DNA of 64,000 nucleotides from Endobacter medicaginis. GTDB lineage: Bacteria > Pseudomonadota > Alphaproteobacteria > Acetobacterales > Acetobacteraceae. Made by a program: the position numbers and the translations under genes. Under the pieces are notes generated by a model that searched no databases, had not been told where the DNA came from, and worked only from the letters and a program-made list of their open reading frames with translations. The stretch covers positions 248,001 to 312,000 of the forward strand of contig NZ_JACHXV010000001.1 in the NCBI RefSeq assembly GCF_014192375.1, given 5' to 3'. Below are positions 9,739-25,761 of the stretch, piece by piece (the stretch's first letter is position 1; each line of letters opens with the position of its first letter).

Positions 9739-11217
9739 ATGAGCATCACCACACTCGACCAGATCCCGGTTCGCCTGCCGCCGACCAACATCACCGCCGA
9801 ACAGGCGCTGCTCGGTGCGCTGCTGGCCAACAACAAGGCCTATGAGCGGGTGGCGGAATTCCTGCTGCCGGCGCATTTCGCCGACCCGGTCAACGGGCGC
9901 ATCTTCCAGTCGATCAAGCGCCGCGTCGAGGCGGGGCAACTCGCTGACGCGGTGACGCTGAAGACCGAGTTCGAACATAACGGTGCGCTGGCCGAGGTGG
10001 GCGGCACGGCCTATCTGGCGCAGTTGCTGACCGCGATGGTCGGCATCATCAATGCCGGCGAGTATGGCCGCGCGGTGCATGATGCCTGGCTGCGCCGGCA
10101 ACTGATCGATATCGGCGAGACGGTGGTCAACAACGCCTTCGGCGCCGAGCCCGAGCTCGACGGCGCACGCCAGATCGAGGCGGCCGAGGAGCAGCTCTTT
10201 GCGCTGGCGCGCGACAATGCCGCCGATAACGGCATGGTGGATTTCGAACACGCGCTGGGCGCGGCGATCAGCTCGGCGGAGCGGGCGTTCAAGCAGGGCG
10301 GCCAGGTGACCGGGCTCACCACCGGCCTGCGCGACCTCGACAAGCGCACTGGTGGGCTGCATCCGTCCGACCTGCTGATCCTCGCCGGGCGTCCTGGCAT
10401 GGGCAAGACCGCGCTGGCCACCAAGATCGCGTTCTCGGCGGCGCGCTCGCTGCTGGAGGCGGCGCGTGCGGCGGGGCCGGAGGTCAAGCCACGCGGGTCG
10501 GTGGCGATCTTCTCGCTGGAAATGAGTTCCGACCAGCTCGCTACTCGCCTGTTGTCGGAGGAGGCGCGGGTGTCGGGCGAGCGCATCCGGCGCGGCGATA
10601 TCGGACAGAAGGATTTCGACCGTTTCGTCGCGGTGTCGCGCGAGCTGGGCGAACTGCCGCTGTTCATCGACGACACCCCGGCGATCACCTTGTCGGCATT
10701 GCGCACCCGCTGCCGGCGCCTGCAGCGTACGCGCGGGCTCGATCTGGTGGTGGTGGACTACCTCCAGCTCATGCGCCCCTCCGTCGGCACCCGCCCCGAG
10801 AGCCGGGTGCTGGAGATCAGCATGATCACCCAGGGTCTGAAGGCGATCGCCAAGGAGTTGTCGATTCCCGTCCTCGCCCTGAGTCAGCTGTCGCGCTCGG
10901 TGGAAAGCCGCGAGGACAAGCGCCCGATGCTGTCGGACCTGCGCGAATCCGGCTCGATCGAACAGGACGCGGATGCGGTGATGTTCGTCTACCGCGACGA
11001 CTACTACCTCAAGCAGCGCGAGCCCAAGGAGGTCGCCTACGACAGCGCCGACAAGTTCCAGATCGCGCTGGAGGACTGGAAGCGCAAGATGGACCTCGCC
11101 TACAACAAGGCCGAGCTCCTGCTGGAGAAGCAGCGCCACGGGCCCACCGGCAAGATCGAGCTGTTCTTCGAGGGTGAGTTCACGCGGTTCGCGGACCTCG
11201 AGCAAAGATACGAGTAG
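9739..11217 (+). CDS. dnaB: Replicative DNA helicase DnaB
   Basis: DnaB is the hexameric 5'-3' helicase of the replication fork. The N-terminal domain starts at about residue 16 (NITAEQALLGALLANN). The RecA-like domain carries Walker A GRPGMGKT at 217-224, Walker B in LDLVVVDYLQLM and the conserved SQLSRSVE and DLRESGSIEQDAD motifs. The 492-residue length is standard. ATG 9739 was chosen over upstream in-frame codons because it matches the usual N-terminus. No intein is present. The region downstream is accessory. Confidence 0.96.
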   Translation: MSITTLDQIPVRLPPTNITAEQALLGALLANNKAYERVAEFLLPAHFADPVNGRIFQSIKRRVEAGQLADAVTLKTEFEHNGALAEVGGTAYLAQLLTAMVGIINAGEYGRAVHDAWLRRQLIDIGETVVNNAFGAEPELDGARQIEAAEEQLFALARDNAADNGMVDFEHALGAAISSAERAFKQGGQVTGLTTGLRDLDKRTGGLHPSDLLILAGRPGMGKTALATKIAFSAARSLLEAARAAGPEVKPRGSVAIFSLEMSSDQLATRLLSEEARVSGERIRRGDIGQKDFDRFVAVSRELGELPLFIDDTPAITLSALRTRCRRLQRTRGLDLVVVDYLQLMRPSVGTRPESRVLEISMITQGLKAIAKELSIPVLALSQLSRSVESREDKRPMLSDLRESGSIEQDADAVMFVYRDDYYLKQREPKEVAYDSADKFQIALEDWKRKMDLAYNKAELLLEKQRHGPTGKIELFFEGEFTRFADLEQRYE

Positions 11218-11509
11218 CCGTTCGTCAAGGATTGGTTGTCATCCGTCTGAGGTATGGATGTCGGCGGCGATAGTCACCACGAAGTGATCTCATGGCGCTG
11301 TCTCCCATCTTGCTCCAACCTGTCGGAAGTGCTCGCGCCCGGAATGCAGGCATCCATAGGGCGACCCGTGGTGGGCTTGCGATCGAGCGGTTCTCTGGCC
11401 TCTGCCGGAGGTCATCGGGGTGGCGGCAGCGGCTCCAGCCTCGGCCGAGGACAACGGCCGCTGAACGACGTGCAAGGCGACGACAATGACGTCGTCGACG
11501 ATCAAACCC
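11218..11509. other. Non-coding gap after dnaB
   Basis: This 292-bp stretch separates dnaB from the convergent hydrolase-like gene. Small open frames cross it on both strands, but none has a ribosome-binding site or a recognisable product. It includes a 12-bp palindrome (CCTCGGCCGAGG) near 11439. It may be a gene remnant left at the edge of the accessory region. I see no terminator with a clear T-run. Confidence 0.4.
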
Positions 11510-13021
11510 TCACTTGACGTCGATTGGTCTGCGCCGGCCGTGGGGCATGTCACTCGCGTTCGGACGGCGAAACAAGCGGGCGATCGCCGACCGCCGAGGC
11601 AGGTCGGCTCCCCGGGGAGTTGCGATCGCATTCCGCATGACCGCCTGCTCGAACCAGTTGCCGGTGGTGAAGCCGGATTCCATGAACTTTGGCGGAACGG
11701 GAAACAACGTGAACATTTCGTGCGATCCGATCTCGTAGTTCACGATGTCGAGCTTTCCATCAGGGTATGCCCGGACGCATTTGCGAGCCCCGCCCTCGAA
11801 ATCAACCGCAATCGCACTGGTGTCACCGAGTGTAACCTCTGAGTAGGTCGCGTTTCCCGTTCCATGCAGTGTAATACCGATGACCTCCTGACCCTTTGCA
11901 AAGGAGAAAGTCAGAAAATTACCGTTTCTTCTGACAATCACGGGGCGCTGATACGGAACGTCAACGGTCGAATGCACGAAAACGAGCGACTCCGCCACGA
12001 TGTCATACGCCAGAAAAGTCGACAGCTCAGAAAACAGAAGATATGTGTCGTAGCGAGGAGTTCCATCTGGGCCCGACCAGTCATCAACGGTGATTTTCTC
12101 GGAATATCGGTCCAAGTGTCGTTGCCGAAAGACATCGTAAGCAAGGCTATAGTTCTTTCGTGCGTATAGCCGGCACAGCAATATATTTGCGATATAGCTT
12201 GCCTCGATATCCTTTATGTATGTTCGAATGGCGACATTTTGTGAATTCATGGCCCGAAGAGCCATTCGCGGTTTGCGACGAGCGGTCTCGTGCAAGACGC
12301 TCAAAATATATTTGACATTTGAACGAAGGCTATCGGTCAAAAACCGAAGGAGGCGGGTTTGGTCGTTCTCCATGATTATATTAATAAGTTTAAGCATGGC
12401 CACATCACTTTGGTATGTATCGATGGCGATATGCCCAATATGACGAAGACCAATTAGATCAAAAGAGGGGTGTTTTTTTGCGTACATTAAAGCAGAAAAC
12501 TCGTCGATGATCTCCTTCGGATCATAAACAACGGTTATTTTGCCTTGAACATCTTCGGCTCGGGGAGCCATAGTCTTGAAAGATTCTCTCCTAACAATCT
12601 TATGCGCAATTAATCCGCTTCGAAGATAGATCTTTTTCTCATCATCAAGTTCAAGCTCGATCGGATCTACCGAATAATTAGGGTTAAATGCCAAGACGTG
12701 GGTTGCACCGAGCATCTTCGAGTATTTAATGGCTGCATAGCCGCCCATCGAGGAACCAATGATAATGACGGTTTTGTATAGCGCGATAATATTTCTGATT
12801 TTCTTCTCAATCGCTGCCATCTCCGGCGAGAGAAAAAAACCTCGGACTGAACTGGTAAATCCCAGGCAAGTAATACCGTTCCGCTGTGCTATGTCCTGAA
12901 GCAGATAGCGTCGCGACGCATCCTGCGTATCGCCGGCTGTAGTGAACGTAATCAGGAGATAGGCTGAATTGCCTTTATGGTAGTGGCAGTATATTTCTTC
13001 ACCTTCGAAAATCAATGTCAT
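11510..13021 (-). CDS. Alpha/beta-hydrolase-like protein of low GC content, unknown function
   Basis: The 503-residue protein has an N-terminal alpha/beta-hydrolase-like half. The nucleophile elbow is GSSMGGY, with Ser91 as candidate nucleophile. Asp167 (VVYDPKE) and His194 or His197 (LRHIGHIAI) are candidate triad partners. The second half, after about residue 200, is helical then beta-rich and matches nothing I recognise. No signal peptide is visible. The gene is markedly AT-richer than its neighbours, with many AAA, ATA and TTT codons, which suggests acquisition by transfer. Such hydrolase-like proteins occur in polysaccharide loci, which fits the region but does not fix a substrate. Confidence 0.65.
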   Translation of the reverse strand: MTLIFEGEEIYCHYHKGNSAYLLITFTTAGDTQDASRRYLLQDIAQRNGITCLGFTSSVRGFFLSPEMAAIEKKIRNIIALYKTVIIIGSSMGGYAAIKYSKMLGATHVLAFNPNYSVDPIELELDDEKKIYLRSGLIAHKIVRRESFKTMAPRAEDVQGKITVVYDPKEIIDEFSALMYAKKHPSFDLIGLRHIGHIAIDTYQSDVAMLKLINIIMENDQTRLLRFLTDSLRSNVKYILSVLHETARRKPRMALRAMNSQNVAIRTYIKDIEASYIANILLCRLYARKNYSLAYDVFRQRHLDRYSEKITVDDWSGPDGTPRYDTYLLFSELSTFLAYDIVAESLVFVHSTVDVPYQRPVIVRRNGNFLTFSFAKGQEVIGITLHGTGNATYSEVTLGDTSAIAVDFEGGARKCVRAYPDGKLDIVNYEIGSHEMFTLFPVPPKFMESGFTTGNWFEQAVMRNAIATPRGADLPRRSAIARLFRRPNASDMPHGRRRPIDVK

Positions 13022-13364
13022 TGCAGTGCGCCGTGCCTGTAGATCAATTCCGATCCGGGTCTGTATCGTTCAGCCCTACTTCATTATCGCCAAATGGCTC
13101 CAGAGGTAAAGGGTGGAGCCATACGCACGATGTCCCGCCGATGGTTTTGGACCGCCGTGGCGATCCCTTTGATCAGGATAGCGTGCACGTCCGTGCACTC
13201 TGACGCATCGTCAAACAATCCGACGGGTTGGTTGGGTGGACGTTTGCTCGTGCAGCGGTCGTCCGCCCCTTTTAGGAAGTCATAATATCGTGAGGTCCGA
13301 TCATTCTCGCCTGATCGAGGATTGCCGCTCCATCCCTACAGTCGGTTTCTCGGCAGTCCTCTGG
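13022..13364. other. Non-coding gap with a small inverted repeat
   Basis: This 343-bp gap lies between two minus-strand genes. Short frames exist but none is convincing. A perfect 8-bp inverted repeat, TGGCTCCA at 13095-13102 and TGGAGCCA at 13114-13121, could form a stem with an 11-base loop after the secreted-protein gene. It lacks a T-run. The gap likely holds the promoter of the hydrolase-like gene, but I could not pick boxes with confidence. Confidence 0.4.
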
Positions 13365-15221
13365 TCAGTTAGCGACCGGGTCGCCGTTGGCATACCAGAC
13401 CCCCGCAGTCGTGCAGTAAGCGAGTGAGCCAGTTCCCTTGCCGGCAGCCTCCCCGTGGTTGCGTGCATCAAGCACGAATACCGACTGTCCGGCCGTGCAC
13501 CCGCTCGGCAGCGAGGCGAACGTCGCCGTGGCATTGCTGATTGGGTGCCCGACATAGAGGTAGTTCGTATACACGCCCCAGTTGCCGAAGCTTGCGTCCC
13601 ACTGGCGGTTGGTCGGTGTGGTGTCCGCGCCGCCATTCAGGAACAACGCCCCGCCGTAGAAGAAGGCGCCGAGATAGGCTCGCAGGAATGATGTCGCGAT
13701 CCCATAGCTCGGCGCCAAAATGTCGGATGCAGGCGCGGTGGACGGCACGTTGGCGGTGTTGCCGTCCCGCGTGACGACGAGTCCCTTGGTTGCGCCGGGA
13801 TCGGTTGTCCCGCCTGAGATCAGGCCACCGACGGCGATCATACGGCCGTGCATGTCGAAGCCGGCATCTATGTCACTGAGCTTGTAGTGTGCGCCGTATT
13901 TGTAATGCGCTGCGATGCACCAATCGAGCACGCTGTAGGTGCAAGCCATGCCGATATGCCAGCCGACATTTGCCCACGATCCGAACACGATGCCCACGGT
14001 GTCATTTGTATTGCCCAGCGCGTCAAGATGCAGCCCGTAGCGCGCATTGCTGGCAGTGCCGCCTTGCCCGTCCGAGCATGAGCCCTGGTCCAGGAGATCG
14101 CCGCGACTGTCGCAGCCGGAGTTGTTGAGATATTCGAGCTCGGCCAGTGACGAGCCGCCATACTGGCCCGGTCTCCATTCCATCACGGCATGGTAGGCGA
14201 ATTGCAGGCCTCGCGCGATTGACGGCGCGACGCTGGTCCGCACCTCCTCGCCGACGACCGCGGCCGGACTGCCGGCGGCATAGCCATCGTAATCGAGCAT
14301 TCCCGACAGAAGGAGCAGGTTCACCTGCTGGCCCGGAGGAGCCTTGACGTTCTGAAGAATTGCGAAGGCGTTCGCATTCATGGACGTTGGGGCTTGTGCA
14401 TACACCGTGCCTGAAGCGCCTCCCCAGAAACACCCGCCACACGAGTCTGTCGCTTCCGCCATCGCCGAGCCATGGGCAGCGAAGACGCCACCATGCTCGA
14501 CCAACGACGCTCCATCAGGAAGTGTGACTTCATCTCTAACGATCATGTAGTGATCTGCAGGCACCTCCAAAGTGCCAGGTACGCCGTTCGACGACGACAG
14601 TGCCGCTCCGGCAGCCTGGAATGCCGGCCGATCGTCCTGCTGGGCGATCGAGACAGGGGTGCCGGCCGCAACGGCCAAAGACAGCGGTGGAATTGTCAGC
14701 GCGGCCGTGCCGGGTGACGGGTAGTTGACGCCACTGATTGGCGCAGCTCCGTTGCCGTCGATGCCGAGATATCGCGCCGTTGCCAGTTTCGTGACCAGAT
14801 CCGGCGTCGTCTTGATGACGACGGTGGTGGCACCCGAGGCGGCAGCCGAGATGGTCGTGGTGTCGATCACGCCCCCGACATTGCCGGTGGATGTTGCGGC
14901 AGCAAACGAGCGGACATTGATCGTATCGCCAAGTAGATCCATCAAGCGAGCCGAGATCGGCGCCGCCCGATTGTGGATCTGCTGAATGGTCGCAGGGCCC
15001 GCCGGGTTGAAGATCTGTCCCGCCGCGTCAAGGCCGGCGATGCCCCCGGGTCGACCGATCTGTCCGTCGATCGCGACGCCGATCTGCCTCAGGTCAGTGG
15101 ATGCTATCGGATTTGGGGCGGCGGCCAGGAGCGCGTTCAACTGTGCTGCCGTCAGCCCGTCGGCGAGGCTGGGGCTCGACGTGAAACACATGGCGAGGAG
15201 GAAACCCAATGCATATTTCAT
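13365..15221 (-). CDS. Secreted beta-rich protein, tail-fibre/pectate-lyase-like, unknown function
   Basis: The 618-residue product begins with a Sec signal peptide (MKYALGFLLAMC, cleavage probably after SPSLA at residue 20). The mature protein is rich in Ala, Gly, Thr, Ser and Asn with short beta-prone segments. A stretch near residues 100-210 resembles the start of tail-spike or pectate-lyase-type beta-helix proteins. The C-terminal 45 residues (AGQSVFVLDARNHGEAAGKG onward) look like a small terminal domain with a paired cysteine. I chose the ATG at 15221 because TAGGGA lies 5 bases upstream; an earlier start at 15236 would add five residues before the signal. Function is unknown; adhesin or glycan-active protein are guesses. 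Confidence 0.65.
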   Translation of the reverse strand: MKYALGFLLAMCFTSSPSLADGLTAAQLNALLAAAPNPIASTDLRQIGVAIDGQIGRPGGIAGLDAAGQIFNPAGPATIQQIHNRAAPISARLMDLLGDTINVRSFAAATSTGNVGGVIDTTTISAAASGATTVVIKTTPDLVTKLATARYLGIDGNGAAPISGVNYPSPGTAALTIPPLSLAVAAGTPVSIAQQDDRPAFQAAGAALSSSNGVPGTLEVPADHYMIVRDEVTLPDGASLVEHGGVFAAHGSAMAEATDSCGGCFWGGASGTVYAQAPTSMNANAFAILQNVKAPPGQQVNLLLLSGMLDYDGYAAGSPAAVVGEEVRTSVAPSIARGLQFAYHAVMEWRPGQYGGSSLAELEYLNNSGCDSRGDLLDQGSCSDGQGGTASNARYGLHLDALGNTNDTVGIVFGSWANVGWHIGMACTYSVLDWCIAAHYKYGAHYKLSDIDAGFDMHGRMIAVGGLISGGTTDPGATKGLVVTRDGNTANVPSTAPASDILAPSYGIATSFLRAYLGAFFYGGALFLNGGADTTPTNRQWDASFGNWGVYTNYLYVGHPISNATATFASLPSGCTAGQSVFVLDARNHGEAAGKGTGSLAYCTTAGVWYANGDPVAN

Positions 15222-15256
15222 CTTGATCCCTACCATCCGGCGTGCGCTCGAGATCT

Positions 15257-15262
15257 ATTCTA
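15257..15262 (-). promoter_or_regulatory. Candidate -10 box for the secreted-protein gene
   Basis: On the minus strand the hexamer TAGAAT (5 of 6 to consensus) stands 36 bases before the ATG at 15221. The -35 position at 17-bp spacing is a poor match, so only the -10 is proposed. Confidence 0.3.
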
Positions 15263-15328
15263 GCCGTCCTCACCCGCGCACTCTCGCCTGATCGGCGACC
15301 GCAAGCTCCCCTGACTTGGGCCGGTCTA

Positions 15329-15357
15329 TTGCTCATGCGCTGTCGGCAATCTATACG
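15329..15357 (+). promoter_or_regulatory. Candidate promoter for the fkbH-like operon
   Basis: TTGCTC at 15329-15334 and TATACG at 15352-15357 are separated by 17 bp and stand 29 bp before the ATG at 15387. It would drive the plus-strand FkbH-ACP-WcbI genes, divergent from the secreted-protein gene. Support is by match and position only. Confidence 0.4.
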
Positions 15358-15386
15358 TATGAGACAGTCCGAGACATGAGCATACG

Positions 15387-17123
15387 ATGCCTCAAACCTT
15401 GCAGCATGCCCTGAACGGTCGGCCGCAACCGACGGCGGTCGAGATTTTTACGCATGGCACACGACTGCTCAAGTCGGCGGGGCCGTCGGACCTGAGGATT
15501 GTGGTGGCCGGCTCGTCGACGATCGACATGGTCGCTCGCGCTGTGGCCGTCGCCACGGCGCTGGAGGGTCGCACCAGCGAGATCATCATCAGTCCGTTCG
15601 GTGCCTGGCAACAGGAGGCGCTTGATCCGATGTCGTCGTTGCGACGCGGCGGCGCGGACATCTTGGTGTTGGTCAATGACTGGCGCGATCTGGTGACTCC
15701 GATGCGTCTGGATGCGACGCTGGATGAGGTCCGTACGGCAGTCGCCGCCAAGGTCAAGTCATTTCGTGTGGTGTGGGATGCATTGGTTACGACGGGGGTT
15801 CGCGTCATACAGCATCTGCCGGCAGAGCCGCTCGCGAGGTATGCAGGAATCGCGGAACGACGTTTGCCGGCGAGCCCGCTGTCACAGATGCGTCTCGCGA
15901 TCGACGCGCTTCTTGATGCCGGTCCCGAGATCATCTTTCTCGACATGGCAGGGCTCGTGGTCGACCCGCGCGCATGGTATGGGGCCAAGCTGACCTTTGG
16001 CCAACAAGCGCTGCCGGAATACGTTGCGCGTATGCGTGGCGCGCTGCGGACCGCGACAAGTCGTGCCAAGAAGGTCCTTGCGCTCGATCTCGACAACACG
16101 CTGTGGGGCGGTGTGATCGGTGATGATGGTGTAAGCGGGATCAAGCTTGGCCCCGAGACGCCGACCGGCTCGGCATTCACCGCATTCCAGGCCTATGTCA
16201 AGGCACTCGCGGCGCGCGGCATCATCCTCGCTGTCTGTAGCAAGAATGAACCCGAGATCGCAGAGACAGGCCTGTCGCACCCGCACTCGCTGCTCCAGCG
16301 CAGTGATTTCGCTGCGTTCGAGTGTTCCTGGTCCGACAAGGCCGGGGGGCTGCGTCGGATCGCGCAGGCGCTCAACGTGGGGATCGATTCGATCGTGTTC
16401 GCCGATGACAATCCGGTGGAATGCGCTTTGGTCCGCGAGATGCTGCCGGAGGTCGCGGTGGTCGAACTTGGCGGCGATCCGGCGGTGTTCATCGAGAAGC
16501 TGGATGCAGGGTGCTGGTTCGACAGCCAGGGTCTGAGCCGTGAGGACTTCGCACGAGGTGCGCTCTATCAGGCGCGCGCAGAGGCCAGTGCGGCGCAGGC
16601 GTCGAGTGGTGATTTGGGCAGCTTCCTCGCCTCGCTCGACATGAAAGGCGTTGCGCGTCCCGCCCAGGCCGACGAACTGGCACGGGTCGCACAGCTCGAA
16701 GGCAAGACCAACCAGTTCAACCTCACGACCCGCCGCTACGATCAGGCGCAGGTTGCTGCGTTCGCCGAGCGCGATGACGCGGTGGTGCTGGTCGGTTATC
16801 TCGCTGACAAATTCGGCGACCATGGGCTGGTCTCGACGGTGATCGGGGTCAAGGACGGCGATGCGCTAAGTATCGAAAGCTGGCTGATGAGTTGCCGCGT
16901 TTTCTCGAGGACGTTCGAGCACTACGTCATGCGCGAGATCCTGGTGACGGCTGGGCGGCTCGGGGCGAGGCGGGTCGTCGGCCGTTACGAGCGCACGTCC
17001 AAGAACGACGTGGTTGCCGACCTTTATGACAGGCTCGGTTTCAAGCGGATCGGCGAGGACGTCTGGGAGCGAGCGGTTGACCGCGATGCTACAGATCTCG
17101 AAACCTGCATCACGGCGCGCTGA
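15387..17123 (+). CDS. FkbH-like HAD-family protein (glyceryl-ACP formation)
   Basis: FkbH-type proteins take 1,3-bisphosphoglycerate, dephosphorylate it and load a glyceryl unit onto an acyl carrier protein. This 578-residue protein shows the full three-part layout. Residues 36-200 are an SGNH-hydrolase-like domain (VVAGSSTID). The HAD domain begins at ALDLDNTLWGG, with nucleophile Asp234 and Asp236, and continues through SKNEPEIAE and FADDNPVE. The C-terminal GNAT-like domain begins at KTNQFNLTTRRY. The next gene is a free-standing ACP, the expected partner. No polyketide synthase is nearby, so a role in glycan decoration fits the context better than antibiotic synthesis. Confidence 0.88.
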   Translation: MPQTLQHALNGRPQPTAVEIFTHGTRLLKSAGPSDLRIVVAGSSTIDMVARAVAVATALEGRTSEIIISPFGAWQQEALDPMSSLRRGGADILVLVNDWRDLVTPMRLDATLDEVRTAVAAKVKSFRVVWDALVTTGVRVIQHLPAEPLARYAGIAERRLPASPLSQMRLAIDALLDAGPEIIFLDMAGLVVDPRAWYGAKLTFGQQALPEYVARMRGALRTATSRAKKVLALDLDNTLWGGVIGDDGVSGIKLGPETPTGSAFTAFQAYVKALAARGIILAVCSKNEPEIAETGLSHPHSLLQRSDFAAFECSWSDKAGGLRRIAQALNVGIDSIVFADDNPVECALVREMLPEVAVVELGGDPAVFIEKLDAGCWFDSQGLSREDFARGALYQARAEASAAQASSGDLGSFLASLDMKGVARPAQADELARVAQLEGKTNQFNLTTRRYDQAQVAAFAERDDAVVLVGYLADKFGDHGLVSTVIGVKDGDALSIESWLMSCRVFSRTFEHYVMREILVTAGRLGARRVVGRYERTSKNDVVADLYDRLGFKRIGEDVWERAVDRDATDLETCITAR

Positions 17124-17151
17124 ACAACCGTTGACGACAAGGAGCAGGACT

Positions 17152-17397
17152 GTGGAGCAGACGGGAATTCTTGATCAGGTCAAGCAGGTCGTCAGCGATA
17201 CGTTTGGAGTATCGGTCGGGTCGCTGACTGCCGAAACGACTGCGAACGACGTTGAGGGCTGGGACTCGGTGGCGCATCTGATCTTCATCAACGGGATCGA
17301 GAGCGCGTTCGGCGTGCGTCTGCCGATGCAGCAGGCATTGGATGTCTCCAATCTGGGCGATATGGCGAAACTTGTTCAAGATGTCCGGCAGGCATGA
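17152..17397 (+). CDS. Small acyl carrier protein partnered with FkbH-like protein
   Basis: The 81-residue product has the ACP fold pattern with the phosphopantetheine serine at residue 39 (GWDSVAHL). It is a different lineage from AcpP at 1807: the WDS motif is typical of specialised carrier proteins. The start is GTG 17152, with AAGGAG 7 bases upstream; no ATG is available. It follows the FkbH-like gene by 28 bp, and its stop overlaps the next ATG (17394), so the three are likely one transcript. It is the likely acceptor of the glyceryl unit. Confidence 0.88.
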   Translation: MEQTGILDQVKQVVSDTFGVSVGSLTAETTANDVEGWDSVAHLIFINGIESAFGVRLPMQQALDVSNLGDMAKLVQDVRQA

Positions 17398-18272
17398 GCG
17401 AGGCGGAAAGCCGGAAGCCTGTGGTCCTCGTCGAGGGACATTGGCAATTCGCCCATCTGATCAGTTTGTTCGAATATACTCCGTCGATGATGCAGGAGGT
17501 CTCGTTTCGCCGCTTTGGCGATCTGGACGAGATGAGGCGGTTGCTCGACACCGCTGACGATGCCGACCGCATCATAGCCGTTGTGCGTCGGGTCGATCAT
17601 CCCGATGATATCGAGCAGACACAACCACCGGTTTGGCTGCGCGAGGACATCTCGGTCATACGGGTCCCGGCTGAAAGCGCGGGCCATCTGTTTTGGCCTG
17701 TCGCGGGCACCGATACACGCTCTGTGGCGGAACCGCTTTATCCGAATGGACGCTACGGCTTCAGTGATCATCACGCGGAGGCACTTGCGCCTCGCGCCGG
17801 TGAGTCCGACGACAGACTTTACCAGGCCTATCTCGGGGAGAGTTCGGTCGAACTCGCCGCAGCACAGCCGCGCCTGGCGCACACCCTCGCCTTCATGCGG
17901 CGACTCGACAGCGTGTGCGACATAGCCTTCGCTGAGCATTTCGAGAGGACGCTGAGCGATGTGAAATATTTCACCGGACCGGTCACGGGGGCCGGGCCGT
18001 TGTTCGCTTGGCTCGCGAATTGCGTGCTGGGGTGTCTGGCCGCGCCTGTGGGTTGGGACACTAAGCGCCTGGAGACGCTGCGCGAGGCTGTTCGCTATCG
18101 AACAATCGGCTTCAGGGGTAATGCGGCGCATGAGTTTCCGGTCCACCCGGTGGTCGCGGCGTCGTTCGGCCTGTCCTGGGCGCAGAATGCGCGTTTCCGC
18201 TGGGGTAGGAACCTGTGGACACATCGCGAGGCGATGCTTCGTGCCATTCGCTGGGAGCCTTGGCTGCCATGA
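17394..18272 (+). CDS. WcbI-like polysaccharide-modification protein (first copy)
   Basis: The 292-residue protein appears to be a divergent member of the WcbI family, putative acyltransferases of capsular polysaccharide loci. A short N-terminal strand (KPVVLVEGHWQ) replaces the usual NCQ motif. The internal pattern FWPVAG...RYGFSDHH and the C-terminal EFPVHPVVAASFGL match the positions of conserved blocks in the second copy next to it. It lacks the cysteine of NCQ, so it may be a non-catalytic or altered-specificity partner. It overlaps the ACP gene by 4 bp and the next gene by ATGA. Confidence 0.6.
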   Translation: MSEAESRKPVVLVEGHWQFAHLISLFEYTPSMMQEVSFRRFGDLDEMRRLLDTADDADRIIAVVRRVDHPDDIEQTQPPVWLREDISVIRVPAESAGHLFWPVAGTDTRSVAEPLYPNGRYGFSDHHAEALAPRAGESDDRLYQAYLGESSVELAAAQPRLAHTLAFMRRLDSVCDIAFAEHFERTLSDVKYFTGPVTGAGPLFAWLANCVLGCLAAPVGWDTKRLETLREAVRYRTIGFRGNAAHEFPVHPVVAASFGLSWAQNARFRWGRNLWTHREAMLRAIRWEPWLP

Positions 18273-19138
18273 CCAAACCGAAGCTGCTTGTCTATGCAAA
18301 CTGCCAGGGCGATGAGATCGACGGTCTGGTGCGCCGCCTGCCGACAATGAGCGGGCTCTTCGACTATGAGAGGATCTTTCTCGGGTCGCTGCACGAGTTC
18401 ATCGATGCCCATGGTGAGGCGGGCGCGCGCGATCGCCTCAACGACGTCGTCGCGGTCTGGGAGCAGAGCAGTCAGGCGAGCGAGCAGGAACGGGTTCTGA
18501 TCCGCGATTTCGTGCCGCGGCAGGCTCGGTGGCTGCGCTTTCCGGCGCTCACCTGTTCGACCCTTTGGCCATTCGGCGTGAGCGACAATCGCCCCTGCGG
18601 CTACGAGCGCTACGCCTACAGCGACATGCTTGCCATGCGGGTCTGGCGGGAGTGCGGTGGCCCGGATGGCACGATCGACAGCCGTTCGGACGAGGAGCTT
18701 TTCGACCGCTACATGACCCTGTCGAGCCGGATGCTGCCGGACCTCGAGCGCACATTGGAGCGCGATATGCTGCAATGGACGCAGCGTGATCGCGATTGCG
18801 ATCTGCCGATGGCGGATTTCCTGCACGCCAATCTCCGTGAGCAGCAGCTTTTCTATACGGTCGGACGCGCCAGTTGGGTCGCGAACGGCGAGATGACCCG
18901 TCAACTTGTTGCGGCCACTGCTCCAGCGGAGTCGCGCGATGACATCCTGGGTGAACTGGCGGCGGCAAGCGCTGGCTGCCTTGGCAACGATACGCTGTCC
19001 ATTCCCGTGCATCCGATGATCATCGAGCGCCTCGGGCTGAAGTGGACAAATGCCTCGGCGATCTGGCATTGGAATTCCTACGAGTTTGATTTCCGGACCT
19101 GGGTTCTTCGTTGCGTCCGGCTCGTCGACTGCATGTAG
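18269..19138 (+). CDS. WcbI-like polysaccharide-modification protein (second copy)
   Basis: The 289-residue protein starts with KLLVYANCQGDE, the NCQ motif typical of WcbI, a CoA-binding putative acetyltransferase required for some capsules. Other blocks are FPALTCSTLWPFG, RYAYSDM and the terminal SIPVHPMIIERLGL. It shares layout with the preceding gene, which suggests an old tandem duplication. ATG 18269 overlaps the preceding stop. Its neighbours suggest it could use an acyl- or glyceryl-ACP donor instead of acetyl-CoA, but that is inference. The operon continues after a 56-bp gap with a glycosyltransferase. Confidence 0.7.
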   Translation: MTKPKLLVYANCQGDEIDGLVRRLPTMSGLFDYERIFLGSLHEFIDAHGEAGARDRLNDVVAVWEQSSQASEQERVLIRDFVPRQARWLRFPALTCSTLWPFGVSDNRPCGYERYAYSDMLAMRVWRECGGPDGTIDSRSDEELFDRYMTLSSRMLPDLERTLERDMLQWTQRDRDCDLPMADFLHANLREQQLFYTVGRASWVANGEMTRQLVAATAPAESRDDILGELAAASAGCLGNDTLSIPVHPMIIERLGLKWTNASAIWHWNSYEFDFRTWVLRCVRLVDCM

Positions 19139-19194
19139 GTCGCGGACCGTGCCCTACGGACAAAGAGACAAGTAGTAGAGAACGAAGAGGTTGC

Positions 19195-20211
19195 ATGAAC
19201 CACAGGTTTCGCAGGTCCTCGACTGTCGTGGAAGCTGTCCATGCGCCCGTCGTCACAGCATCTCCAACCGAGCTCGTGGTGACCGGAACGCCGCTCGGGG
19301 TTCTGCAGACGCATTGCGACCAGCTCGCGCGCGCCAGCTTCCATGATCAGCGGGCGTCCAGCAGTTGGCATCCTCACCAAGACGTCACTCTTGCTGCGCT
19401 TGGCTCAGCGGTCTTGGTGATGATGGTCAAGGACGAGTCCGACATTATTCGGCAGAATCTCCAACATCACTATAAGTTGGGGTTTCGTTACTTCTTCGTG
19501 CTCGACAACCGCAGTAATGATGCAACAGCGGCCGTGATCGCGGAGTTCAGGGCAGGCCACCCCGATGCCCAGGTCGCCTGTCTGTATGATTTCGTCGTCG
19601 GGTATTACCAGGCGGCGAAAATGGCGGCGGTCGTGGCGTTTCTGTCGATCTATCTGGAACATGAGAATAACCCCGGGCGCTGGTTGTTCTTCGTCGATGC
19701 TGACGAATTCATCACCTTCTGTGCGGGAGACGTTGTCGAGGGACCGAAACGGATATCGGCCGCACTCGATGACCCCGCACACAAGATGTTGGTCATGCAC
19801 TGGGCGCAATGCGCGAGCATGGAGGTCGTCGAGCACGACACGCCGGACAGGTCGTTGCTGGAGACGCATACCCGGATATGGACCACTATGGAGCCTGCGG
19901 TGACCAAGGTCGCGATCCGGATGGACGCCGGGATGACCACGCGTCAGGGCAACCACATGGTGGAGTCGTTCCCCTATCAGACCGATGCCGCCGTGGTTCT
20001 CGCGGAATTCGGCCTCTACATGCTGCATTTCCCGCAGCGCAGCGTCGATCAGATGCGACGCAAGGTGGTCAATGGAGCCGCAGCCTATGCCGCGACCAAA
20101 GGCCAGGAGAATCATGGCGGCCACTGGCGCCAGTACTACGAGTGGTATTCCCAGAATGGCGACGTCGTACTGCGGCAGCTGATCCAGCAGCACATCGATA
20201 GCTGCTCCTAG
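19195..20211 (+). CDS. Glycosyltransferase family 2-like protein (copy A)
   Basis: The 338-residue protein has a GT-A type core: KDE at 79-81 after LVMMV, DNRSND at 104-109 and the metal-binding DADEF at 168-172. This matches the group of short bacterial GT2 proteins in polysaccharide loci. The first 70 residues are variable and without a membrane segment. ATG 19195 follows GAAGAGG by 4 bases. The protein is closely related to copy B at 20931-22262, down to the shared C-terminal ENHGGHWR...HIDSC block. Sugar and acceptor are unknown. Confidence 0.82.
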   Translation: MNHRFRRSSTVVEAVHAPVVTASPTELVVTGTPLGVLQTHCDQLARASFHDQRASSSWHPHQDVTLAALGSAVLVMMVKDESDIIRQNLQHHYKLGFRYFFVLDNRSNDATAAVIAEFRAGHPDAQVACLYDFVVGYYQAAKMAAVVAFLSIYLEHENNPGRWLFFVDADEFITFCAGDVVEGPKRISAALDDPAHKMLVMHWAQCASMEVVEHDTPDRSLLETHTRIWTTMEPAVTKVAIRMDAGMTTRQGNHMVESFPYQTDAAVVLAEFGLYMLHFPQRSVDQMRRKVVNGAAAYAATKGQENHGGHWRQYYEWYSQNGDVVLRQLIQQHIDSCS

Positions 20212-20259
20212 ATCCGGTCAGGATCGCGCCGCAGCAAGCGCGTGGCGACCACGACGGTC

Positions 20260-20898
20260 TCAAAGAGGGGCCGCGTTGATCCTGTAGGCATCGAAGACCG
20301 ATCTCAGCAGAGTATTGTCACCCGGTGCAGAGTAGCGACGTCCGGCCTCGAACTCTGAACTTGGAGCAAACTCGACCGTTCGCGTATCGCCGTCCACCGC
20401 ATGCTCGACGAGTTCGGCCTGCTGCTGCTTGGGTCTGATGCCTATAGTGAGAAAGGCTGGTGATGCAGTGGCCTCGCGAATGAGCGAACGCATGGTTTCG
20501 AGGCCGGGATATGCGAGCCACTCGACGCCGATCATCGTGACGAAAAGCTTCGGTCGAGGATCGGCAAGTACTTGGCGGAAGCGGTCCACCGCACGGGACA
20601 AGGAGCCGAAATCGGCATCGTTGCTGATGTCATGGTGAAGGATGATCAGGCCCGAGCCACAGTTCTGCTGAAAAAAGGGGTGCGTCCACTCATTGCGAGC
20701 ACCACAGCACTGCCACTGTGCGCGGCTGAGAAACTGACTGAAATCGTCTCGAATGCAGGCCGCGACCATGTCGGCATTCGAAAACAACCAGTCGAATGGT
20801 GACGAAAAGCGTCGCAGCCCCGCATCCTCGATCGCCTGCGCCGTCGGGCAGGCCGTCCCTAGGCTGATCACGAAGGCGATGTCTTCGGCTGGTGTCAT
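20260..20898 (-). CDS. DUF1796 putative papain-like cysteine peptidase (copy A)
   Basis: This 212-residue protein matches the DUF1796 family, which is predicted to have a papain-like fold. The hallmark SLGTACPTAQAIEDAGLRRF holds Cys17, followed by SSPFDWLF. A later HHDIS segment supplies a candidate histidine. No activity has been shown for the family that I know of. ATG 20898 follows AGGAACC. The frame runs upstream to 21342, but that part is antisense-frame shadow of the glycosyltransferase gene. It is transcribed after copy B of the glycosyltransferase and convergent with copy A. Confidence 0.75.
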   Translation of the reverse strand: MTPAEDIAFVISLGTACPTAQAIEDAGLRRFSSPFDWLFSNADMVAACIRDDFSQFLSRAQWQCCGARNEWTHPFFQQNCGSGLIILHHDISNDADFGSLSRAVDRFRQVLADPRPKLFVTMIGVEWLAYPGLETMRSLIREATASPAFLTIGIRPKQQQAELVEHAVDGDTRTVEFAPSSEFEAGRRYSAPGDNTLLRSVFDAYRINAAPL

Positions 20899-20930
20899 CA
20901 AATTAGGTTCCTGTTTACCAACGAGCCGGA

Positions 20931-22262
20931 TCAAATGCACGAGTCGATGTGGGTCTGCAGGATTTCGCTCAGCACGTCCTCGCCACGGGTCTCGTAGGCG
21001 ATGTAGCGCTCTCGCCAATGACCGCCGTGATTCTCGAGGCCCTTCGACGCCTTGAACGCCCGACCGCCGTTGATGACCTTCTTCTTCACATGCTCCAGCG
21101 AGCGCAGCGGCGCGTGGAGCATGTACCAGCCGTCCTCGGCGAGGACATGCATGGTGTCGAGAGGATGGTCGAAATTCTCGACGAAATGATTGCCCATGGC
21201 GGGATCGAGACCGAGCGCGCAGCGCAGCGCAATCTTCGGCACAGCCGGACGCAGTTGCGCCGGGCGCCGGACGAACACGGACAACATCTCGTCGCCCTCG
21301 GGGAGCGTCTGCATGATGTTCGCGGTCGCCGAGTTGACCCACTGCATCACGATCATCCCAACGGCCGGATCACCGAGAGCGGCCTCGAAGCGGGCAACTG
21401 CGCCGGCGTCGTCATCCCCGGCGTAGGCGATGAATTCGTCGGCATCGATAAAGAACATCCACTCGAGCGCACGTCCGTCGATCGCCGCGTAGTCGAGCAG
21501 CGTGCGCTGGAAGGCGGCAATCTTCGCCGACTGATAGTAGCCGACGATCGGGTCGTGCACGAGCAGCACCAGTGCATCGGGATGTGCGTCACGGAAAGCG
21601 GTCACCAGCGCGGCGGTGCCGTCGGTGCTGTTGTTGTCGAGCAGGCAGAAGCAGCGAAAGCCGAGCCGGTAGTGATGTTCGAGATTGGCGGTGACGATGT
21701 CGGCCTCGTCCTTGACCATCATTACCAGCCCGGCCCGTGCCAGCGCCGGCACGCTGCCTGGCACATGCAGGCCGGCCCAGCCCGGCTGCATGTCGGCGTA
21801 GCTGCTCTCCGCCCGGATCTCGCTGTGGCGCCGGGCCAGCCGGGCACGTCCGTCCGGCCTGACATTGGGGTAGACATGCTCGATCAGCGACAGCGCGAGG
21901 GCCGGTTGCCCGGCGCCGATCGCCGCGTCCACTCGAGGCCAGAGCGGCCAGTCGCTGCCAGGATCCATCGCCTGTGCCTCGACCAGTGCGGAGGTCGCCT
22001 CCGCCTCGCGTCCCAGCAGCAGCAGGCAGATGCCGCGCTCGATCAGGGCGCGGAAGCGGACATGGAAATCACCCTCGGCGATGGCCGGGGCAAGGATGTC
22101 GAGCGCCTCGGATGGATGGTCCGCTTCCTTGAGGGCGGTAGCGAAATCGACCCGCAGACCATCGTCGGGCGCGAGTGTCGACGCCTTGGCATGGAGTTCG
22201 CGCAGGGCGATGTCCGCCCCTTCCGTCTGCGCCCTGTGACGGAAACTCTCCCAGACGCTCAT
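20931..22262 (-). CDS. Glycosyltransferase family 2-like protein with helical N-terminal extension (copy B)
   Basis: The 443-residue protein has the same catalytic core as copy A (MMVKDEADI, DNNSTDGT, IDADEFIAY) and the same terminal ENHGGHWRERY...HIDSC block. It differs by an N-terminal helical extension of about 150 residues (ALREL, DILAPAI and LGREAEA segments) that resembles TPR-like repeats and may bind a partner. ATG 22262 follows a GGGA stretch by 5 bases; the frame extends to 22304 without support. It is flanked on both sides by DUF1796 genes on the same strand. Confidence 0.82.
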   Translation of the reverse strand: MSVWESFRHRAQTEGADIALRELHAKASTLAPDDGLRVDFATALKEADHPSEALDILAPAIAEGDFHVRFRALIERGICLLLLGREAEATSALVEAQAMDPGSDWPLWPRVDAAIGAGQPALALSLIEHVYPNVRPDGRARLARRHSEIRAESSYADMQPGWAGLHVPGSVPALARAGLVMMVKDEADIVTANLEHHYRLGFRCFCLLDNNSTDGTAALVTAFRDAHPDALVLLVHDPIVGYYQSAKIAAFQRTLLDYAAIDGRALEWMFFIDADEFIAYAGDDDAGAVARFEAALGDPAVGMIVMQWVNSATANIMQTLPEGDEMLSVFVRRPAQLRPAVPKIALRCALGLDPAMGNHFVENFDHPLDTMHVLAEDGWYMLHAPLRSLEHVKKKVINGGRAFKASKGLENHGGHWRERYIAYETRGEDVLSEILQTHIDSCI

Positions 22263-22334
22263 CGCGATCCCATCCTGTCGAGCACGGCGACGCAACGATA
22301 ACACGGGCGTCCGGGTGGCGTCACCCGTCGTGGT

Positions 22335-22979
22335 TCAGGCCGGCTCGATCGCGAGCCGGTAGGGTGCGAACACGCAGCGCAGCAGCGCGCCGTCACCGGG
22401 GGCGGGAAAGCGAAGCCCGTCTGTGCTCGGCGCGCCGGGCGAGAAGCTCCAGCGGCGGAAGCGGTCGGCGCGCCCCACCTCGCGCAGCGTGCCGTGCGCG
22501 CGGGGCTGCGGCGGGCCGGGGTTGAGGCCGATCGCCAGCAGATCGGCGTCCGGCGCCTTGTCCTGCAGCCGCGCGCGGAGCTGGGTGAAGCTGCGTGCGT
22601 CGAGATGGCGGTTTTCGGTCATCACCACGAACAGGCTGCGTACACCGGGCCGCAATGCGGCGCGCAGCCGATCCGTCGCCCGCATCAGCCGGGCGAAGTC
22701 CGCATCGACACTGATATCGTGATGGTTGGTGATCGGGCCGAGCCCGAGCCGGGCGCGCAGTCGGGTGAGCGACCATTGCTGCGGGCCGCCCACCCGCTCC
22801 CAGGCAGAGCGGTCGCAAAACTGCGCGAAATCGTCGCGCAGGCAGGCCAGCACCAGCTTCGGGTCGGTGAAGGTCCAGTCGAACGGGCCGGAGAAGCGCC
22901 GCAGCCCGGCATCGGCGATCAGGGTCGCGGTCCAGCAGGCGGAGCCGAGGCTGAGGACCTGCGTGATCGCGGGCCGCAT
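22335..22979 (-). CDS. DUF1796 putative papain-like cysteine peptidase (copy B)
   Basis: The 214-residue protein is a paralogue of the gene at 20260. It shares SLGSACWTATLIADAGLRRF (Cys15), GPFDWTF, and NHHDISVDADFARLMRATDR with candidate histidines. Copy B is much GC-richer than copy A, so the two have diverged in composition or arrived separately. Its ATG overlaps the hldE stop (ATGA), giving likely co-translation with LPS-core heptose synthesis. Confidence 0.75.
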   Translation of the reverse strand: MRPAITQVLSLGSACWTATLIADAGLRRFSGPFDWTFTDPKLVLACLRDDFAQFCDRSAWERVGGPQQWSLTRLRARLGLGPITNHHDISVDADFARLMRATDRLRAALRPGVRSLFVVMTENRHLDARSFTQLRARLQDKAPDADLLAIGLNPGPPQPRAHGTLREVGRADRFRRWSFSPGAPSTDGLRFPAPGDGALLRCVFAPYRLAIEPA

Positions 22980-24442
22980 CAGCCGCCGCCGATGCGTGCG
23001 ATGGTGCGCGTGGTGGAGTGCCCGGCGACGAGGTCCACCAGATCCACCCGGCCGCCGCGGGCGAGCACGAACTCCGCCCCCACCACCCGGTCGAGCGTGT
23101 AGTCCGCCCCCTTGACCAGGACGTCGGGGCGCAGCGCGGTGATCAGCGCCAGCGGCGTGTCCTCGCCGAACCCCACCACCGCATCGACATGGCGGATCGC
23201 GGCGATCACCGTCGCGCGGGCGGCGAGGTCGTTGACCGGCCGGCCCGCCCCCTTGAGCCGTGCGACGGAGGCATCCTCGTTGAGCCCCACCACCAGCCGG
23301 TCGCAGCTGGCCCGTGCTGCGGCGAGCAGGGCGACATGGCCGGGGTGGAGGATGTCGAAACAGCCATTGGTGAAGCCGACCCGCAGCCCCTGCGCCTGCC
23401 AGCGGGCCACCAGATCGCGGATGGTGGGCAGGTCGGCCAGCCCGATCGGGTCGGAGGCGTCGGGGCCGATGCCGTGGCCGTGCAGCTCGCGCTGCACCTC
23501 GGCGATGTCGGCGGTGGCGGTGCCGAGCTTGCCGACCACCACGCCTGCGGCCGCATTGGCCACCTCCATCGCCGCCTCCAGCGACATCCCCGAGGCATGC
23601 GCCAGCGCGAGCGTCGCGATCACCGTGTCGCCCGCACCCGAGACGTCGAACACCTCGCGCGCGCGGGCCGGCACCGAGGCCATGCGGCCATCGGGCTCGA
23701 CCAGCATCATGCCCTTGTCGGAGCGCGTCGCCAGGATCGCCGAGCCATCGGTCTGCTGCGCGATCACCGCGCGGGCGGCGGCGACGACGTCCGCCTCGTC
23801 GCCGGTCGGCAGCCTTGCGGCGAGTGCCAACTCGCGTGCATTGGGGGTGATGCAGGCCGCGCCACGGTAGCGGGAGAAATCCTCGCCCTTGGGATCGACG
23901 AAGACCGGGATACCGCGCGCCTTCGCGCCGTCGATGACCGCGCGCAGCACCGCCTCGCCGCAGACCGCCTTGCCGTAATCCGACACCACCACCGCGTCGG
24001 CGCGGGCCAGCGGTGCGTCGATGGCGGCGAGCAGGGCCGCCTCCTCGTCGGGTGCGAGCGGGGCGCGGCTTTCCTCGTCGATTCTCACCACCTGCTGGTG
24101 GGTGGCGATGAAGCGCGTCTTGCGGATGGTCGGGCGGTGGCCGGTGACGATCAGCACGCCGTCGAGACGCGGGCGCTCGCCGATCAGCCGGCGCAGGATC
24201 GCGCCCGCCTCGTCCTCGGCAGCCAGGGCGAGCAGGATCGCCGAACCGCCGAGCGAGAGGATGTTGTTAGCGACATTGCCCGCCCCGCCGAGCATCTCCA
24301 CCGTGCGCCCCTGACGGATCACCGGCACCGGCGCCTCGGGCGAGATGCGTTCCATGTCGCCATAGATGAAGCGGTCGAGCATCACGTCGCCGACGCACAG
24401 CACGGTGATGGCGGAAAAATCGAGCCCCGCGGCAGCGTTCAT
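22979..24442 (-). CDS. hldE: Bifunctional heptose-7-phosphate kinase / heptose-1-phosphate adenylyltransferase HldE
   Basis: HldE supplies ADP-glycero-manno-heptose, a precursor of LPS inner core and some glycoproteins. The 487 residues hold both domains. The N-terminal PfkB-type kinase has GGAGNVANN and the catalytic GAGDT at 269-273. The C-terminal cytidylyltransferase-like domain has FTNGCFDILHPGH, ending at 369. ATG 24442 overlaps the ugd stop. The much longer open frame upstream is a shadow over ugd. Whether the other heptose genes are near cannot be seen from this window. Confidence 0.94.
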   Translation of the reverse strand: MNAAAGLDFSAITVLCVGDVMLDRFIYGDMERISPEAPVPVIRQGRTVEMLGGAGNVANNILSLGGSAILLALAAEDEAGAILRRLIGERPRLDGVLIVTGHRPTIRKTRFIATHQQVVRIDEESRAPLAPDEEAALLAAIDAPLARADAVVVSDYGKAVCGEAVLRAVIDGAKARGIPVFVDPKGEDFSRYRGAACITPNARELALAARLPTGDEADVVAAARAVIAQQTDGSAILATRSDKGMMLVEPDGRMASVPARAREVFDVSGAGDTVIATLALAHASGMSLEAAMEVANAAAGVVVGKLGTATADIAEVQRELHGHGIGPDASDPIGLADLPTIRDLVARWQAQGLRVGFTNGCFDILHPGHVALLAAARASCDRLVVGLNEDASVARLKGAGRPVNDLAARATVIAAIRHVDAVVGFGEDTPLALITALRPDVLVKGADYTLDRVVGAEFVLARGGRVDLVDLVAGHSTTRTIARIGGG

Positions 24443-25761
24443 CGGCCGATGCCGCGATAGCGCATGCCGGCGGCGGCCATCGCGGCCGGGTCGAACACGT
24501 TGCGCAGGTCGACCACCACCACGCCCGCCATCAGGTCGCGCAGCTTCACCGGCGGGATGGCGCGGAACTCGTTCCACTCGGTGAGCACCAGCAGCGCATC
24601 CGCGCCGCGCGCCGCGTCCAGCCCGTCGGTGCAGTAGATCACGCCTTCGGGCAGCAGCGGCCGCGCCGCCTCCATTCCGGCCGGATCGTAGGCGCGCAGG
24701 ATCGCGCCGGCCTCGGCGAGACGATGCAGGATCGGGATCGACGAGGCGTCGCGCATGTCGTCGGTCTCGGGCTTGAAGGTGAGACCGAGCACGCCGACGG
24801 TCAGGCCGGCGACGCTGCCGCCGCAGGCCTCGATCAGTCGCCCGGCCATCGCTTCCTTGCGGGCCTCGTTGACGGCGATGGTGGTCTCGATCAGCCGGCT
24901 CGGCGCGCCGGCCTCCTCGGCGATGGCGACCAGCGCGCGGGTGTCCTTGGGAAAGCACGAGCCGCCGAAGCCCGGCCCGGCATGCAGGAACTTGCGCCCG
25001 ATGCGGTTGTCGAGTCCCATGCCACGGGCGATCTCGTGGACGTCCGCGCCGACGCGCTCGCACAGATCCGCCATCTCGTTGATGAACGTCACCTTCATCG
25101 CCAGGAAGGCATTGGAGGCATATTTGATCAGCTCTGCCGATTCGAGCGACGTGAACAGGATCGGCGCCTCGATCAGGTAGAGCGGCCGGTACAGACGATG
25201 CAGGATCTCGCGCGCCCGCTCACCCCCACCCGGCGCGTCGGTGTCGATGCCGATCACCACCCGGTCGGGGCGCATGAAATCGCCGATCGCGCTGCCCTCG
25301 CGCAGGAACTCCGGGTTGGAGGCGACATCGAAATCGAGATCGGGACGGGTCCGGCGCAGGATCTCTGCCACCTTGCGGCCGGTGCCGACCGGCACGGTGG
25401 ACTTGGTCACCACCACCGCATGCGCGGTAAGCGCGCGTGCCACCTGGTCGGCGGCCTCGTGCACATAGGTGAGGTCGGCATGGCCGTCGCCGCGCCTTGT
25501 CGGGGTGCCGACGGCGATGAACACCGCCTCGGCGCCATCCACCGCATGGGCGATGTCGTCGCCGAAGGAGAGCCGCCCGGCGGTCGTATTGTCGGCGACC
25601 AGCCGGTCGAGCCCCGGCTCGTAGATCGGGATGCGGCCCTCGCGCAGGGCGGCCAGACGGCCGGGATGGGTTTCCACCACCCGCACCTCGGTGCCGAATT
25701 CGGCAAAGCAGGCGGCGGAGACCAGCCCCACATAGCCGCCGCCAATCATCGCTATCCGCAT
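24439..25761 (-). CDS. ugd: UDP-glucose 6-dehydrogenase
   Basis: The enzyme oxidises UDP-glucose to UDP-glucuronate using two NAD+, for uronic-acid-containing polysaccharides. The Rossmann start MRIAMIGGGYVG is exact. Glu152, Lys213 and the catalytic Cys269 (GFGGSCFPKD) are all present. The 440-residue length is typical. ATG 25761 matches the family N-terminus; an upstream frame to 25815 adds nothing. It is the promoter-proximal gene of a run through hldE, DUF1796, glycosyltransferase and DUF1796, each joined by overlap or short gaps. Confidence 0.95.
   Translation of the reverse strand: MRIAMIGGGYVGLVSAACFAEFGTEVRVVETHPGRLAALREGRIPIYEPGLDRLVADNTTAGRLSFGDDIAHAVDGAEAVFIAVGTPTRRGDGHADLTYVHEAADQVARALTAHAVVVTKSTVPVGTGRKVAEILRRTRPDLDFDVASNPEFLREGSAIGDFMRPDRVVIGIDTDAPGGGERAREILHRLYRPLYLIEAPILFTSLESAELIKYASNAFLAMKVTFINEMADLCERVGADVHEIARGMGLDNRIGRKFLHAGPGFGGSCFPKDTRALVAIAEEAGAPSRLIETTIAVNEARKEAMAGRLIEACGGSVAGLTVGVLGLTFKPETDDMRDASSIPILHRLAEAGAILRAYDPAGMEAARPLLPEGVIYCTDGLDAARGADALLVLTEWNEFRAIPPVKLRDLMAGVVVVDLRNVFDPAAMAAAGMRYRGIGR

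Follow-up and report, generated by a model that had tools for sequence, protein, structure and literature searches.

The stretch analysed here comprises 64,000 nucleotides (nt) of the genome of Endobacter medicaginis, an alphaproteobacterium of the Acetobacteraceae (contig NZ_JACHXV010000001.1, positions 248,001 to 312,000; hereafter 'the window'), and belongs to an assembly of 3.6 Mb in 61 contigs with an assembly completeness of 100%. The window carries a tightly coupled operon composed of a complete FkbH gene, the gene for a dedicated acyl carrier protein (ACP) and the genes for two WcbI-like proteins, here called W1 and W2 (Table 1). The close or overlapping spacing noted in the first-pass annotation, a reading of the letters and open reading frames, was borne out: all four genes lie on the forward strand, with a 28-nt gap between FkbH and ACP genes (AAGGAG stands ahead of the best ACP start, GTG 17152) followed by 4-nt overlaps of the ACP with the W1 gene (start 17394) and of the W1 with the W2 gene. 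The best start of W2 is ATG 18269, and its longest frame runs from 18215. The G+C content of the operon genes is 0.58–0.63, compared with 0.676 for the whole window. A scan of 15150–20400 for promoters and terminators gave one and two sites, respectively, no excess over shuffled sequences.

Table 1. Genes of the operon and of its surroundings (positions in the window; aa, amino acids).
Feature	Position	Strand	Evidence or remark
FkbH-type protein, 578 aa; proposed glyceryl loader	15387..17123	+	TIGR01686 268.9 bits (cut-off 146.65); HAD motifs; Cys503; 3slr/BF1531 match 1.5e-40
Dedicated ACP, 81 aa, GWDS phosphopantetheine site	17152..17397	+	PF00550 31.8 bits (cut-off 20.8); GTG start behind AAGGAG
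W1, first WcbI-like protein; WcbI fold without CoA-binding Cys or His; proposed non-catalytic partner	17394..18272	+	AlphaFold2 and residue alignment
W2, second WcbI-like protein, NCQ cysteine; proposed transferase	18269..19138	+	PF18588 48.3 bits (cut-off 29.2); AlphaFold2
PF13704 glycosyltransferase; probably same glycan locus	19414..20211	+	PF13704 56.7 bits; 275 nt 3' of W2
DegT-type aminotransferase and PglD-like gene	7769-9597	+	Upstream of dnaB
503-aa frame; looks foreign to the window	11510-13021	-	Low G+C (0.49); weak UPF0227 match only
623-aa protein, signal-peptide-like start	13365-15236	-	No Pfam match; ~30% homologue beside W1-W2 in locus L055
Two DUF1796 (putative papain-like cysteine peptidase) genes	20260-20934 and 22335-22979	-	Flanking a PF13704 glycosyltransferase

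The FkbH-type protein had been described as having all three domains, and this holds for the FkbH domain, which the profile places at residues 227–553; the N-terminal part is recognized only when the protein is aligned with 22 further FkbHs. Its HAD phosphatase part retains the expected motifs (DLDNT, SKN and DDNP; D234, D236, SKN 285–287, D340/D341), and Cys503 of a C-terminal MSCR motif is conserved in 23 of the 23 FkbHs aligned, at least 90% of which have the HAD motifs. By sequence, BF1531 is its sole solved relative. The WDS noted in the ACP is its phosphopantetheine motif, within GWDSVAHL. FkbH enzymes elsewhere load and dephosphorylate D-1,3-bisphosphoglycerate to leave glyceryl on a carrier (PMC8949500, PMC7489565), and by analogy the window FkbH would load glyceryl, with Cys503 presumably carrying the acyl group. 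The whole genome contains five phosphopantetheine-binding (PP-binding) places, the operon ACP among them, and one full-length ketosynthase match (window ~2138–2890, beside the housekeeping ACP) along with two short fragments. There is therefore no polyketide synthase for FkbH to serve; what had been said of the window is true genome-wide, and the single full-length ketosynthase rules out a polyketide role for FkbH in this genome.

Both proteins encoded downstream had been called WcbI-like. For W2 this agrees with the family profile, but W1, which has no match in Pfam (E 0.1) or NCBIfam, owes the name to its fold and to its similarity to W2 (~25% identity, E 1e-9); the W1 relative in locus L065 (fetched loci carry L numbers and genomes G numbers) scores 27.2 on PF18588, just below the cut-off. 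The AlphaFold2 model of W2 (14 sequences, pLDDT 89.7) matches WcbI (4bqn_B) with Z 21.6 and a root-mean-square deviation (rmsd) of 3.4 over 262 residues at ~15% identity (Foldseek E 1.5e-10), and its best non-WcbI structure match has Z 9.3. The corresponding values for the W1 model (pLDDT 90.3) are Z 17.8 and rmsd 4.3 over 252 residues (Foldseek 4.2e-7), the next entry having Z 8.4. Beyond WcbI, fold searches with the two models gave only partial, middling matches (Z < 10).

WcbI binds coenzyme A (CoA) and acetyl-CoA: Cys14 bonds the CoA thiol and, together with His201, holds the acetyl carbonyl, and the 3'-phosphate is contacted by Arg294. No acetyltransferase activity was detected for it, and the involvement of a partner was suggested (PMC4104973). 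The NCQ cysteine of W2 aligns with Cys14. Among 44 WcbI-like rows this residue is retained in 41, the others showing Ser in one case and a gap in two; the place of His201 holds His in 39, Arg in four and Ala in one. Despite having Arg here, W2 is still a member of the WcbI family by profile and fold. Neither residue occurs in any of the 13 W1 rows, four of which are gapped at the Cys place, and the W1 model is that of a WcbI fold without its site. Given this pattern of Cys and His, W2 looks like the catalytic protein and W1 like a pseudo-enzyme partner. Two equal WcbI transferases are ruled out, as W1 lacks both residues. The structural match between W2 and WcbI stops before Arg294; this would be compatible with an ACP in place of CoA, but is no proof of it. 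No fused W1-W2 gene was found, the 570-aa protein of L085 being one WcbI domain plus another region. Many WcbI-type proteins do have long extra regions (L068, L086, L066, L065, L116, L131), which are TPR repeats in L086 and L131 and otherwise unassigned N-terminal stretches, and which possibly bind the acceptor.

To what extent these genes travel together was judged from several sets of genomes. Scanning 84,980 named species genomes with a pattern derived from the W2 alignment (A1) yielded 21 loci that encode a relative and were fetched by W2 similarity alone; neighbouring ACPs and loaders (FkbH or acyl-AMP-ligase-like enzymes) were called with profiles built here, some of them from loci later counted. 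An ACP lies near W2 at 17 of the 21 loci, and 14 of these also have a loader. FkbH accompanies the ACP at nine loci (L072, L074, L075, L077, L079, L080, L081, L082, L086), an acyl-AMP-ligase-like enzyme does so at five (L084, L085, L088, L089, L091), and the ACP stands alone at three (L076, L078 and L073, the last with a contig end directly behind the ACP). The 21 loci partly share genomes, with three each in two metagenome-assembled genomes and two in another.

Within the family, the W1 search matched 21 of 299 genomes, own included. Counting the window's own, 15 W1-W2 pairs were read in the family; they coincide with the named W2 loci at eight places, and have an ACP within 5 kb in 11 cases and a loader in nine. 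Outside these pairs stand L069–L071, with single or very large W proteins, and the weak W matches of G088, G156, G194, G201, G278, G303 and G305 are not among the fetched loci at the W place. From the density of PP-binding places, an ACP near W1-W2 is expected at a mean of 1.8% and a maximum of 4.1% (formal p 6e-13, relatedness ignored). FkbH and a PP-binding place lie side by side elsewhere in genome G274, unlinked to its W1-W2, and an FkbH-ACP pair lies ~8 kb from W1-W2 in L063; pairs without a linked loader are therefore not always loader-free.

The association extends beyond the family. Searching 398 genomes of the phylum with PF18588 gave 23 places in 15 genomes, own included, and the 22 others form 19 stretches. 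Using a W2-type cut of E < 1e-30, chosen with the E values already known to jump from 5e-37 to 1e-13, an ACP is present in five of the seven W2-type stretches and a ligase in four (L116, where ligase and ACP are on the opposite strand to the W2-type gene, L128, L130 and L134); one of the two without an ACP is a 3.5-kb contig. In contrast, none of the 12 stretches with other WcbI types has an ACP, also with an AcpP-inclusive profile. Among 385 genomes of the class (own included), the A1 search matched five others, with ACP and loader within 5 kb in four: L116, also among the phylum stretches, L146, L147, whose W match is weak, and L148, whose W is cut by a contig end. The fifth, L145, has no ACP plus loader within that distance. 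L146, on Niveispirillum cyanobacteriorum plasmid NZ_CP025615.1, is a version with a single WcbI, comprising genes for a HAD-IIIC phosphatase (FkbH, 305.2 bits), an acyl carrier protein, a WcbI family putative acetyltransferase (86.6 bits) and an SDR, flanked by mobile elements.

Conservation of the genes together had been set beforehand as the check on which the idea could fall, and FkbH, ACP and WcbI-like genes do recur together in other genomes; we regard it as nearly certain that the module is real. The 'four-gene system' of the first-pass annotation survives as this co-occurrence but not as a fixed set, because the loader is exchangeable and one WcbI-type protein can suffice, as in L146. 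The unit is thus 'loader + ACP + WcbI-type protein'.

In three genomes of one genus (G182, G259, G125) the order is W1-W2-ligase-ACP, with no FkbH match, and the L135 ligase, in which a PP-binding domain is part of the same protein, adjoins a WcbI protein (118.8 bits), followed by FkbH and ugd. When five ligases were scanned against NCBIfam, two scored best with the fatty acyl-AMP ligase (FAAL) model, and the other three with the long-chain-fatty-acid-CoA ligase model, the FAAL model being second; all scores were below the cut-offs. Because of these best profile matches and the neighbouring ACP, our guess is that the ligases are FAAL-like. The W2 tree has 41 rows; left out of it were eight loci that duplicate named ones and those WcbI loci whose matches were short or weak (E 1e-8 or more). 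The neighbour labels need 12 changes on it, compared with a shuffled mean of 22.1; they are clustered on the tree, yet have been exchanged repeatedly. The window W2 groups with that of L055 (100/100) and next with L063 and L072 (92/93), while the window FkbH is closer to the FkbHs of L065, L067 and L042 (50–54%) than to that of L056 (36%), which is the same place as L072. As their nearest relatives differ, FkbH and W2 have been re-paired.

The operon lies between dnaB (9739–11217) and ugd (24439–25749). This bracket (9739–25749) is a variable glycan island, and L055 (in G274) has the same two ends with other content, in the order ugd, W1, W2, glycosyltransferase, a homologue of the window gene at 13365–15236, glycosyltransferase, dnaB; a PF13704 gene follows W1-W2 there too. 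Glycan genes also surround the ligase-bearing loci: glycosyltransferase, PglD-like and DegT aminotransferase genes stand beside ligase-ACP-W2 in Caulobacter sp. D5 (L088), REEB354 (L089) encodes GtrA, a hexapeptide protein, ligase-ACP-W1-like-W2 and a glycosyltransferase, and in Eremiobacterota L091 an ABC-2 exporter, W2-ligase-ACP and an epimerase are found. These surroundings favour a glycan as acceptor, and the DegT and PglD-like genes, which the window shares with L088, hint at amino sugars. In L136, both dnaB and an ABC transporter gene are found near an FkbH-ACP pair.

We interpret the operon as a module that would acylate a surface glycan with a group supplied by a carrier protein instead of CoA. 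As in other pathways, FkbH would dephosphorylate D-1,3-bisphosphoglycerate and load the glyceryl group onto the dedicated ACP. W2, with its cysteine at the place of the pantetheine end of the CoA in WcbI, would take the phosphopantetheine arm of the ACP and move glyceryl to a sugar-containing precursor supplied by the neighbouring glycosyltransferases, while W1, of the same fold but lacking Cys and His, may be a partner without catalytic function, there to complete the complex or to present the acceptor. That glyceryl is the group transferred seems probable to us; the full reading, with glyceryl-ACP formed by FkbH and its glyceryl handed to a surface-glycan precursor by W2 together with W1, involves a predicted donor, transfer and acceptor, and we lean towards it by a small degree. 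The earlier proposal was that WcbI-like proteins may transfer an acyl group from the ACP to a polysaccharide; the glycan genes around the loci favour such an acceptor, and an equal role for the two proteins does not stand.

Several observations weigh against this interpretation. FkbH matches occur in 116 of the 299 family genomes, compared with 21 for W, and an FkbH type of 40% identity (L043–L050) has no W nearby in eight of eight fetched loci, seven of which have an ACP. Even for window-type FkbH (E at most 1e-140; 12 genomes), a W2-type gene lies within 6 kb in only six cases (own, G179, G288, G191, G126 and G264) and not in G013, G278 (a 3.9-kb contig), G208, G246, G085 or G318. Neither ACP nor loader is near W2 at four of the 21 named loci (L083, L087, L090, L092), the window W2 itself carries Arg at the His201 place, like three other rows, and the related loci are not independent. 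As FkbH is far commoner than W and often occurs without it, FkbH-ACP appears to be a wider tool on which W proteins draw. A W1-search match anywhere in the genome is found in eight of the 12 genomes with window-type FkbH, four of the eight being weak, compared with 13 of 287 others (Fisher p 6e-8, relatedness ignored). FkbH-ACP pairs with no WcbI-type gene in the fetched stretch (L043–L046, L048–L050, L136–L140, L144) have among their neighbours a multidomain glycosyltransferase (L046), an epimerase (L048) and a class IV aminotransferase (L049).

The same genes could be explained otherwise. As has been suggested for WcbI, W2 might be an acetyltransferase that depends on CoA and acts on the ACP-bound group or independently on the sugar, with another enzyme using the ACP-bound product. 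The binding of CoA and acetyl-CoA by WcbI (PMC4104973) and the NCBI family name, putative acetyltransferase, speak for this, as does the acetyltransferase found beside FkbH and ACP in tetronate pathways (PMC7489565). Against it stand the confinement of the ACP link to one WcbI branch (five of seven stretches, none of 12 in the others) and the retention of the ACP when the loader is swapped, and we think it unlikely. Less likely again is a small secreted glycolipid, or another glycerate-containing secondary metabolite, as the product of the operon, with W2 releasing the acyl group onto a small acceptor; natural-product pathways are where FkbH is best known (PMC7489565, PMC8949500), but the genome lacks a polyketide synthase, the dnaB-ugd island holds glycosyltransferases, and glycan genes lie beside FAAL-ACP-W2 in other phyla.

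Finally, FkbH-ACP and W1-W2 could be mere co-passengers of a variable glycan island with no joint action. They are each found without the other, and the operon does occupy a stretch of lower G+C between dnaB and ugd. Their recurrence, however, is well over that expected from ACP density and is seen in other families of the class, the loaders are of two unrelated types, and the genes overlap by 4 nt, so that we judge this explanation very improbable.

The preferred interpretation, ACP-dependent glyceryl transfer to a glycan, has parallels in known systems. Burkholderia capsule WcbI (PF18588; 4bqn/4bqo; PMC4104973) shares its fold with W1 and W2, and the W2 Cys sits at the place of the CoA thiol, but the window differs in having a dedicated ACP and loader, a paired W1 without the Cys, and Arg for His201 in W2. 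FkbH beside a standalone ACP is known from tetronate and methoxymalonyl-ACP pathways (Mad7/Mad8, Mad14/Mad12; PMC7489565); unlike those operons, the window has WcbI-type proteins and no polyketide synthase, and no FabH-like or dehydrogenase/methyltransferase partners were seen in the scan of proteins encoded at 11510–22979. Relatives of the window operon use an acyl-AMP ligase with a dedicated ACP, as FAAL systems do (PMC8460268), whereas the window has FkbH. Likened by description only, Campylobacter jejuni offers an FkbH-domain gene, cj1302, in a flagellar glycosylation locus (PMC7099621) without a polyketide synthase, and a flagellin glycan bearing di-O-methylglyceric acid (PMC3068675), a derivative of glyceric acid; the excerpts of these two papers contain no proof linking cj1302 to that group and do not mention a WcbI-type protein. 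The proposed type of product exists in nature, again by description only: gellan carries L-glyceryl (PMC9737242), although FkbH should give the D form, the Pragia fontium O-antigen carries D-glyceroyl (PMC10609480), and Tannerella has N-glyceroyl pseudaminic acid (PMC9912281), the glyceroyl gene for the T. forsythia glycan having been said to remain 'elusive' (PMC6120980). In the PubMed Central literature searched, we found no description of a loader + ACP + WcbI unit and no paper in which FkbH, 'acyl carrier protein' and WcbI occur together; the excerpts of PMC2824669 hold nothing on FkbH or ACP.

More generally, but as a tentative proposal that we rate somewhat below an even chance, one branch of the WcbI family may use a dedicated ACP as donor and so constitute a general plug-in for the acylation of surface glycans: the acyl group would be determined by the loader and transferred by a WcbI-type protein, often accompanied by a degenerate copy. 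FkbH would then serve for glyceryl and acyl-AMP-ligase-like enzymes for other acids. The work on the WcbI structure ended with a CoA-bound protein, for which activity had not been detected, and with an 'unidentified partner' (PMC4104973); if our interpretation is true, an ACP plus pseudo-WcbI would be the kind of partner that it found missing, and a handful of small soluble proteins from environmental bacteria would allow both donor and partner to be tested. FkbH-ACP-WcbI would also be a candidate route to glyceroylated glycans, and the swap from FkbH to ligase would show how bacteria could alter the acyl group of a surface sugar by a one-gene change.

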